Assembly (NCBI RefSeq): GCF_021401245.1
Contig: NZ_JACBFY010000002.1
Coordinates: forward strand, 248,001-312,000
Direction of reading: 5' to 3'
Origin: Pseudacidovorax sp. NFM-22
GTDB taxonomy: Bacteria > Pseudomonadota > Gammaproteobacteria > Burkholderiales > Burkholderiaceae_C
DNA length: 64,000 bases
Part shown: piece after piece, positions 19,811 to 22,133 of the stretch
Position numbering within the stretch: position 1 is the stretch's first letter
Layout of the letters: every line of letters begins with the position of its first letter
Notes under the pieces: model-generated
The model's input: only the letters and a program-made list of their open reading frames with translations
Database searches by the model: none
Told to the model about the DNA's origin: nothing
Made by a program: the position numbers and the translations under genes

Positions 19811-20863
19811 ATGAGCGACCACAACGACACGCCGTTCCACGACACGCCCGCGCATGCCGCGCCTTCGAGCGCCGACGCCACGCCCACCGCCGCAGCGTCG
19901 GCCCCGGCAGCCGCTTCGAGCGCGTCCACGCCGGACAGCGGCGCTGCATCGGCATCCGCCGGCCATGCCCCTGCCGGCAACACCGACGCCGCGCCGACCG
20001 CGGACGGCACAGCAGCTGCGGGGCCGGCCCCGACCCCGGAAGCCGGCCTCACGCGCGGTGAACGCAGCGAACGCGGCGAAGAACGCGGTGAACGTGGCCA
20101 ACGGCGCCGCCGCGGCGGCCGTGGCCAGGGCAACGGTGGTGCGGGCCGACCCGCCGCCGACGGCACCCAGCCCGAGCGCCAGCCGCAGGCCCAGCGCCAG
20201 AACCCGGCCAAGGGCCAGAACGCGGCTCAGCGCAACGCCGGCCGCAAGGTGCATCCGCTGCTGGAGACGCTGGCTGGCCTGTATCCCCACCTGTTCGGCG
20301 CGCGCTTCCTGCCGCTCAAGCGCGGCATCTACGAGGACCTGCTGGCCCGCCATGCCGAAGTGCTGCCGGGCGACGAGCTGAAGGTGGCGCTGGGCCAGCA
20401 TGCGCGCTCCACCCGCTACCTGGACGCCATCGCCAACCGCGTCCCGCGCCACGACCTGGACGGCCAGCCGGTGGAGGAGCTGGCGCCCGACCACGTGCAC
20501 CATGCCATCGTCGAACTCTTCAAGCGCCGGCAGGGCCGCACGCAGGAGGACCTGCGCCCGCAACTGGTGGCCCGCCTGGCCGACGCCATCGGCGCCAGCG
20601 GCCTGGAACGCATGGACTATGTGCAGCAGGTGCGCGTGGCGCAGCCGGATGCCCTGGCCCTGATCGACGAAGCCTTCACCGAACACGGCCGCCGACTGGC
20701 CCGGCGCGAGGCGCTGCAGCGCGCCTTCGAGGCCAGCGGCCAGCCCACGGTCGAGGCCTTCGCCGCCATGTACGGCATGGACCTGGGCGAAGCGCGGCGG
20801 GTGCTGGGCAAGCAGCCCGGCAAGGGCGCGGCCGCTGCGGCTCCCGCGGCAAGCGAGGCCTGA
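19811..20863 (+). CDS. proQ: ProQ/FinO-domain RNA chaperone
   Basis: 350 residues. The first ~140 are low-complexity Ala/Pro/Thr/Ser, ending in a basic Arg/Gly-rich stretch (RGERGQRRRRGGRGQ). The ProQ/FinO domain follows at about 147-260: HPLLETLAGLYPHLFGARFLPLK, GIYEDLL, ALGQHARSTRYLDAIA and RHDLDG. The C-terminal part has a helical segment and a short basic tail. Family members bind structured sRNAs and mRNA 3' ends. Homologues in Burkholderiales often carry such disordered N-terminal arms. The long Thr/Ala-rich arm is unlike E. coli ProQ. Confidence 0.88.
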   Translation: MSDHNDTPFHDTPAHAAPSSADATPTAAASAPAAASSASTPDSGAASASAGHAPAGNTDAAPTADGTAAAGPAPTPEAGLTRGERSERGEERGERGQRRRRGGRGQGNGGAGRPAADGTQPERQPQAQRQNPAKGQNAAQRNAGRKVHPLLETLAGLYPHLFGARFLPLKRGIYEDLLARHAEVLPGDELKVALGQHARSTRYLDAIANRVPRHDLDGQPVEELAPDHVHHAIVELFKRRQGRTQEDLRPQLVARLADAIGASGLERMDYVQQVRVAQPDALALIDEAFTEHGRRLARREALQRAFEASGQPTVEAFAAMYGMDLGEARRVLGKQPGKGAAAAAPAASEA

Positions 20864-20917
20864 ACCCAGGGCGCGGGGCGCCCGATCAAAGACATCGCAG
20901 ACCGCACGCAACCCGGA

Positions 20918-20940
20918 ATGCGTGGTAACTTACCACGCAT
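20918..20940 (+). promoter_or_regulatory. perfect 23-nt palindrome over the antitoxin start codon
   Basis: Arms ATGCGTGGTAA (20918-20928) and TTACCACGCAT (20930-20940) are exact reverse complements around a single C. The last two bases are the first two of the ParD-like ATG start (20939-20941). This position and symmetry fit an operator for a ribbon-helix-helix antitoxin; as RNA it would also form a hairpin over the start codon. Confidence 0.7.
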
Positions 20941-21271
20941 GCCATCCAACTCCATCCGCGTCGAGGCGAATCTGTACGAGGCCGCGCGCGCCGAGGGCGC
21001 GGTGCAGTCGCGCTCGACCGCTCAACAGATAGAGCATTGGGCCAAGCTCGGCGCCTCGCTCGAGTCATGCGGACTCACCGTCGGTCAAGTCACCTCGCTC
21101 TTGAGAGCGTCCGGCCAGGGTACTGGGGATGCCAATCTCTGGGCCTTCAAGCGCCAGCGGCAGCAGCAAGACATTGTGGCCGCAACCGACGGCAGGGTGA
21201 CGCAGGCGCAACTCAGCTGGTTCTCGGGTGGCAAGGCTCAGAGCCTCAAGCTGATCGACTCGCCCTACTGA
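20939..21271 (+). CDS. ParD-like antitoxin (TA_antitoxin ParD family) with C-terminal extension
   Basis: 110 residues. The N-terminal 45 residues look like a ribbon-helix-helix protein of the ParD-like family: SIRVEANLYEAARAEGA and RSTAQQIEHWAKLGASLE. The remaining ~65 residues (LWAFKRQRQQQDIVAATDG and a terminal GGKAQSLKLIDSPY) are not part of the usual short family members and could hold the toxin-neutralising region. The start at 20939 was chosen because it lies at the edge of the palindrome and begins the family match; an upstream in-frame Met at 20918 lies inside the palindrome. The partner gene follows after 5 nt. Confidence 0.72.
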   Translation: MPSNSIRVEANLYEAARAEGAVQSRSTAQQIEHWAKLGASLESCGLTVGQVTSLLRASGQGTGDANLWAFKRQRQQQDIVAATDGRVTQAQLSWFSGGKAQSLKLIDSPY

Positions 21272-21276
21272 CGCCC

Positions 21277-22077
21277 ATGGCGACCGAACCCGTTCTGCCA
21301 ACCGACGAAGCGCCGCTGGACGAAGCCTCGGTCGACCTGCTCCTCTCGAACATGGGGACAGACATGATCCTGGTCGGCGGCCAGGCGCTCGGCTTCTGGA
21401 TGAGCCGCTTCGGCATCGAGACCGACGGGGGCGTGGCCATCTCCAACGACGGCGACGCGCTAGGGAAAGTGACCCGCGCAAAAGAACTGGCCGATGCCAT
21501 CCATGCCCGCGTCGAAATGCCCCACTCGACAAGCCGAACCGCGATCGTCGCCCAACTCCGGTTGCCGGCGCCGAATGGCAAGGAACGCAATATCGATGTG
21601 CTGCACAAGCTGTACACCGTGGAGGGTCTGAAGAAGTCGACCATCTTCACGGAGCGCGTCATCCGGAACAGCGTCGAAGTCGAGTGGCGGGCTGGCCGGC
21701 GGATTCGGGTAATGGACCCATTCGACGTCCTCGAATCAAGAGCCCAGAACGCCGTCGGCCTCATCGAGGCGAAGGGGCCACATGTCCTGACCCAGGCCCT
21801 TTGGGCAATCCAGGTGGCATCCGCCGCCTTGGTACGGCTTGCCGACGACCCGGCTTCGAAGGACCGTATCGGCCGCAGGCTTCAGGACATCTACACGTTG
21901 GCGCATAGCCAAGTGGGGCGCAGGCTCCTCAAGGAGCATCGGATCGAACTCCTCGATGCCGTCGACACGAACTTGCTGAGGCAGCGGGCACCGCAGGTTG
22001 GCCAGCAACTCGACGCGATTGATGAGGCTCGTATCAATCGCCGCAGCAAGCGGGCGTCTGTGCTCGATCCGCGCTGA
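21277..22077 (+). CDS. nucleotidyltransferase-like protein, candidate toxin partner of the ParD-like antitoxin
   Basis: 266 residues, no signal peptide. ILVGGQALGFWMSRFG (31-46) followed by SNDGDALG (56-63) resembles the Gly-Gly motif and paired Asp of nucleotidyltransferase-fold proteins such as AbiEii/MenA-type toxins; a third acidic residue could be Asp107 in RNIDVLHKL. The C-terminal half is helical. Identity to a named family was not certain. It has no clear ribosome-binding site and follows the antitoxin stop by 5 nt, so coupling is likely. Codon use is less GC-biased than in proQ and htpX on either side, suggesting acquisition. Confidence 0.6.
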   Translation: MATEPVLPTDEAPLDEASVDLLLSNMGTDMILVGGQALGFWMSRFGIETDGGVAISNDGDALGKVTRAKELADAIHARVEMPHSTSRTAIVAQLRLPAPNGKERNIDVLHKLYTVEGLKKSTIFTERVIRNSVEVEWRAGRRIRVMDPFDVLESRAQNAVGLIEAKGPHVLTQALWAIQVASAALVRLADDPASKDRIGRRLQDIYTLAHSQVGRRLLKEHRIELLDAVDTNLLRQRAPQVGQQLDAIDEARINRRSKRASVLDPR

Positions 22078-22133
22078 AAACGGCAGTCCATCGGACCCTT
22101 GGGCGCCGCCACTGAACGACGCCCGCCCACGAA

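Follow-up and report, generated by a model that had tools for sequence, protein, structure and literature searches.

ORF1 and ORF2, two adjacent open reading frames (ORFs) of Pseudacidovorax sp. NFM-22, probably constitute a two-gene, type II-like toxin–antitoxin (TA) module, in which ORF2 would be a MenT-like nucleotidyltransferase (NTase) toxin and ORF1 its antitoxin. They lie on the forward strand of a 64,000-nt stretch of contig NZ_JACBFY010000002.1, here called the window, whose numbering is used for all coordinates, and they were found where the preliminary description had placed them, with a 5-nt gap (21272-21276) between them. That description had left the pair as a possible new type II or type IV system; the type II part is retained as likely, and we give the type IV part little weight for reasons set out below.

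20939..21271, + strand: candidate antitoxin gene (ORF1), ParD_like ribbon-helix-helix (RHH) protein of 110 residues; PF11903, E 4.7e-12 for the 110-residue form; start set from relatives
21277..22077, + strand: candidate toxin gene (ORF2), NTase-fold protein of 266 residues; AlphaFold2 predicted local distance difference test (pLDDT) 95.1, predicted template modelling score (pTM) 0.92

We propose that ORF2 would most likely add nucleotides to an RNA, for instance tRNA, and so would stop translation, as with MenT. ORF1 would bind ORF2 through its C-terminal tail, its RHH domain would occupy the palindrome over its own start codon and thereby repress the operon, and loss or degradation of ORF1 would free the toxin. 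We further suggest, as a tentative idea that is rather doubtful at present, that this tail of about 40 residues is a transferable switch that works independently of the DNA-binding domain and controls NTase toxins of a new family, silencing them both by covering the active site and by inducing auto-phosphorylation at the conserved S/T before DxD (S56 here). If true, what has been proposed for MenAT would hold for a second, separate family of NTases as well, with antitoxins of another design.

The preliminary description had noted in the 266-residue ORF2 protein the string VGGQALGFW and an aspartate pair, Asp58 and Asp60, and had compared it to NTase folds. The residues are present and the comparison is borne out by the AlphaFold2 model, which matches NTase structures (MenT1 is the best match in both Foldseek and VIA) and is predicted to have the fold of the nucleotidyltransferase (pol beta) superfamily. 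Motifs of this superfamily are hG[GS], DxD and a third acidic residue; in the ORF2 family V33-G34-G35, D58/D60 and D107 are invariant in 65 of 65 sequences (alignment A3, comprising 64 relatives and the window, with L031, L032, L041, L044, L048 and L081 excluded for interrupted or oddly long frames).

21376..21399, + strand: motif I, GGQALGFW, residues 34-41; GGQAL and W invariant in 65/65
21442..21456, + strand: S56-N57-D58-G59-D60, DxD metal motif; D58 and D60 kept in 65/65
21595..21597, + strand: D107, third acidic residue; 65/65; on strand 103-109 of the model

The scan that yielded 70 ORF2 loci demanded VGGQALx[VF]W, so that this number is a lower bound and the motif I region, which is the search pattern itself, may look more conserved than it truly is. 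Position 56, two residues before the DxD motif, is serine in 34 of the 65 sequences and threonine in the other 31. We take it to be the place of the phospho-acceptors MenT1 T39 and MenT3 S78, at the exact MenT spacing. Its restriction to S/T fits a MenT-type auto-phosphorylation but may equally stem from a catalytic or structural need.

By sequence, the window ORF2 has no match in Pfam (E up to 5), NCBIfam or PADLOC, and no NTase was found when it was compared to PDB sequences. AbiEii/DUF1814, the Pfam model for MenT / AbiEii proteins, was matched by none of the 65 family members (E up to 0.1); NTP_transf_8 was weakly matched by seven of them (best E 0.003). Since no Pfam model describes the 65 members, and no NCBIfam or PADLOC model the window ORF2, annotation and defence-finding tools may miss such loci. 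Two candidate identities were rejected: ORF2 as an AbiEii/DUF1814 member by sequence, given the absent Pfam match in the window and the 65 members, and the pair as ParDE, given that the partner model has an NTase fold and no ParE/RelE fold. In one of the excluded loci (L048:3884-5830) the ORF2-like domain is part of a 648-residue open frame that has no Pfam match and whose C-terminal part is long and charged.

The ParD-like identity given to ORF1 in the preliminary description was upheld by a match to PF11903 ParD_like (E 5.7e-12, 45.9 bits compared to a cut-off of 23); a fold search matched Arc/RHH proteins at non-significant E only. The unusual C-terminal extension that it described as some 65 residues long is shorter, about 48 residues, because the Pfam match stops at residue 69 of 117. 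ATG 20939 (110 residues) is the more likely start codon instead of ATG 20918 (117 residues), as the latter lies inside a perfect palindrome and relatives align from the former. The part of the extension that we propose binds the toxin is as follows.

21140..21268, + strand: C-terminal tail of ORF1, 43 residues, proposed toxin-binding part; tail profile and alignments of partners

The pairing itself, put forward earlier for this locus, is conserved: ORF1-ORF2-type pairs recur in other genera, and as in type II TA systems a small gene coupled to the putative toxin gene lies directly upstream of the ORF2 relatives at the 70 loci, a recognisable partner being absent from L058 and L078 (two of the 64 intact relatives). 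The ORF2 start falls between -38 and +67 nt from the partner stop in these 64 and overlaps the partner gene in 39 of them (by 4 nt in 10 and by 11 nt in 10), under a rule for picking starts that permitted overlaps of up to 40 nt. The gene before the ORF2 homologue in L058 is an unusual neighbour, with a TumE toxin-family match (L058:3365-3877, E 7.7e-12).

Pfam domains in 70 partners (window included, L041 left out) were ParD_like in 29, Phd/YefM in 15, RelB in six, winged helix-turn-helix (HTH) in three, HTH_3 in two and TumE in one, which by difference leaves 14 with none of these. A reversal of roles as in HEPN-MNT, where the NTase is the antitoxin (PMC7641770, PMC11586414), would make ORF2 an antitoxin that nucleotidylates and disarms ORF1. 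We consider this highly improbable, since no HEPN domain was matched among the 70 partners (E up to 0.01), which instead match antitoxin and DNA-binding families, and since ORF1-like genes persist without ORF2 in two of ten tail-bearing loci described below.

Partners with different DNA-binding domains have similar tails. Their C-termini can be aligned, the approximate order being KRxxQxxD, G, a brief (E/D)-S-(L/M) segment and, at the end, hydrophobic residues. A profile built from the last 48 residues of 29 ParD-group proteins and run on 3678 ORFs from the 70 loci ranked 23 of the 41 non-ParD partners above all 3608 non-partner ORFs, the first of which appeared at E 0.45; as the partner ORFs had been chosen by eye, this test is not fully blind. 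At E 0.01 the profile matched 4/6 RelB, 1/2 Xre, 2/13 short and 1/3 PhdA partners, but 0/12 PhdB and 0/4 winged-HTH partners, for which the tail is indicated by rank. The tail is readily recognised in the RelB partners, in one Xre partner and in two partners without a domain, and only faintly in the Phd and winged-HTH partners. Profiles from the RelB, winged-HTH, PhdB and PhdA groups performed less well, finding fewer of the partners and placing non-partner ORFs among their early hits. Tail-only short partners also exist (e.g. L031, L032). The tail gave nothing over noise against Pfam, and was compared with PDB sequences in the hope of finding MenA1, without a match; the likeness of the tail-only partners to MenA1 is therefore one of size and setting only.

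Two observations on partners stand apart from these. One contig (L054) has two copies of ORF2 with different partners, one winged-HTH and the other HTH_3. A divergent ORF2 branch (L073, L074, L076, L077, L079, L098, L099) has 68-95-residue proteins upstream; no DNA-binding domain was recognised in those scanned (all except L098 and L099), most end in P...W-x-x-L, and two are on viral contigs.

On the toxin tree the six DNA-binding classes need six changes, at least five being unavoidable, so that with one change over the minimum domain exchanges have been few. The clearest is the Xre-type L039, nested among ParD-type toxins with support 99/97; the winged-HTH group and one of the Phd groups cluster with ParD types in a mixed assemblage, itself supported at 92/78. 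These observations bear on two alternatives. In one, ORF1 would do no more than repress, and ORF2 would be a non-toxic, ANT/Lnu-like enzyme with a drug or metabolite as its substrate. This is unlikely, since it leaves unexplained the likeness of tails across different DNA-binding domains, the exchange in L039 and the tail-only partners L031 and L032. In the other, which follows the type IV scheme put forward for AbiE, ORF1 would repress and would counter the effect of the toxin without binding it. The MenT-like fold of ORF2 and the description of AbiE as type IV (PMC3985639) are in its favour; a tail common to antitoxins with unrelated DNA-binding domains points, indirectly, to a protein interface instead, and we hold this arrangement to have a low probability.

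The pairing was also surveyed in reverse, from the side of the antitoxin. Of the 299 genomes of the family Burkholderiaceae_C, 105 had matches to ParD-type proteins, and among the best 30 loci the tail profile separated ten with the tail (E 6.6e-6 or better) from 20 without (E ≥25 or unreported). The ten are followed by an intact ORF2 homologue in six cases, a remnant in two and neither in two (L106 and L110, which keep the tail without ORF2). None of the 20 precedes an ORF2 homologue, and within these 30 best loci an RHH domain without the tail was never seen with ORF2. The tail-with-ORF2 half of this result is partly circular, which slightly lowers our confidence in the module: five of the ten had trained the profile, one (L109) duplicates the locus L041 and another (L111) also came from the ORF2 search. 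Of the three found independently of ORF2 (L106, L110 and L112), a single one has a remnant and none has an intact copy.

The tail-less ParD_like proteins have neighbours of their own, as 14 of the 20 precede a kinase-like ORF of the LLAGPNGAGKS type (L116-L125, L127, L130-L132); both such ORFs that were scanned (L116, L118) match Zeta_toxin in Pfam. At L133:1489-2478 (C15) the genome of the window has its second ParD_like gene, which is short; the sequence after it looks, by eye, like methionine aminopeptidase split between two frames.

Palindromes at the antitoxin start are specific to the class of partner in three classes. Regions from -60 to +6 of the antitoxin start were scanned, with expectations taken from shuffles; the patterns, for the ParD, PhdB and RelB classes, were defined after the sequences had been seen and were then tested against shuffles and the other classes. 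A GTGG-N3-11-CCAC palindrome is present in 21 of 30 ParD-class loci (0.45 expected), the GGCTAAAATAGCC/TTAGCTAA type in nine of 12 PhdB-class loci (0.03 expected) and TGTAGCTACA in five of six RelB-class loci (0.00 expected), the sole cross-class match being that of the RelB-class L062 to the loose ParD pattern. These are probably operators, and that of the window is given below.

20918..20940, no strand: perfect 23-nt palindrome ATGCGTGGTAA-C-TTACCACGCAT, probable operator; 11-bp arms, 1-nt centre; overlaps the antitoxin start codon

The presence of ORF2 is patchy. In the survey of Burkholderiaceae_C, 12 of 299 genomes match it, including a decayed copy (G013), a 43-residue remnant (G182) and a probably spurious match (G171); in the phylum survey few candidates were scored per genome (≤6 in the rows shown). 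Phages yielded no match at E 1e-5, and viral contigs two loci, each with a short partner. Plasmids carry homologues in Mitsuaria (L101) and, near conjugation genes, in Bordetella pseudohinzii (L102), each with a small hypothetical gene directly upstream. Within the genus ORF2 is present in two of 15 genomes. The pair, single-copy in its host genome, has a ProQ-family gene (PF04352) on one side and an M48-peptidase (htpX-like) gene on the other. In three genomes of the same genus (L086, L087 and L088) homology ends at 20856-20859 and restarts at 22117-22118, from which we conclude that this is where a gain or loss of the pair took place.

20860..22116, no strand: stretch absent at the same site in relatives, approximate extent; homology breaks in L086, L087 and L088

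The difference in codon use from the flanking genes, remarked on previously, is confirmed, in that ORF1 and ORF2 (G+C 0.646 and 0.635; G+C at third codon positions, GC3, 0.80 and 0.79) are below both the ProQ-family gene (0.747; GC3 0.86) and the htpX-like gene (0.673; GC3 0.95), although their overall G+C is fairly near that of the latter. The second carrier in the genus (L089), whose proteins match Pseudacidovorax intermedius NS331 (L015) by eye, has the pair at the same proQ-htpX site. Synonymous divergence (dS) between it and the window is 0.085 for the htpX-like gene, compared to 0.55 for ORF1 and 0.72 for ORF2; a pair at the same site yet far more diverged than its neighbour suggests allelic replacement or two separate arrivals at one site. 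Recurrence in other genera, together with ratios of nonsynonymous to synonymous divergence (dN/dS) of 0.22 for ORF1 and 0.14 for ORF2 between the window and the nearest homologue, indicates that the pair is more than a chance association.

The same data bear on whether a once-toxic pair is now silent or domesticated in strain NFM-22. ORF2 is interrupted or incomplete in five of 70 loci (L031, L032, L041, L044, L081) with the partner gene still recognisable, although sequencing error is possible where these are metagenome assemblies, and the pair is single-copy and absent from 13 of the 15 genomes of the genus. Against this, the window ORFs are intact, their motifs are complete and the dN/dS values are low (0.14–0.22), and we regard silencing as quite improbable.

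Modularity of antitoxins and NTase toxins are both already known (PMC10440598, PMC10435456, PMC8406773). A search of the literature by title and abstract, with subscription papers and preprints outside its scope, found nothing on this NTase family, its pairing with ParD_like/Phd/RelB proteins or the common tail. The class of tRNA-modifying NTase toxins is growing; their antitoxins are described as diverse, and it has been proposed that many have induced auto-phosphorylation in common (PMC11375011, PMC10435456). If confirmed, the loci described here would provide a natural series in which similar tails are joined to as many as five kinds of DNA-binding domain, three of them with matched operators, and the ORF2 family would allow tests of antitoxin assembly, of one tail across scaffolds and of the generality of the S/T mechanism.

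Comparison with known systems places the pair close to several of them. AbiE (AbiEi-AbiEii) similarly pairs a gene for a DNA-binding antitoxin with one for an NTase toxin, although ORF2 lacks the Pfam match of AbiEii and AbiEi belongs to another antitoxin family than ORF1. AbiE autoregulates at inverted repeats, and AbiEi is a two-domain antitoxin (PMC7319586). Xress-MNTss of Streptococcus suis, reported as an autoregulated type II system (PMC8406773), also joins a DNA-binding antitoxin to a toxin with an NTase domain; this toxin, set beside ORF2 by description only, was active only if directed to the periplasm in E. coli and was likened to kanamycin NTase (PMC8406773). The ParD_like-Zeta pairs (e.g. 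Rv0367c-Rv0366c; PMC6504116) have the same RHH family in the antitoxin, but among the family loci their antitoxin tail differs, and the Zeta toxin is a P-loop kinase. MenAT1 and MenAT3 (Rv0078A-B, Rv1045; DUF1814) differ in that ORF2 is without the AbiEii/DUF1814 Pfam match and its family has the motif I GGQALxxW and an invariant third aspartate. MenAT1 showed no transcriptional autoregulation (PMC11375011), whereas ORF1-type antitoxins have similar tails on varied DNA-binding domains and palindromes at their starts. For MenT1 and MenT3 it has been proposed that the antitoxin makes the toxin phosphorylate itself in the active site, at T39 and S78, respectively (PMC11375011). All 65 members of the ORF2 family have a serine or threonine at the corresponding position, two residues before the DxD motif.
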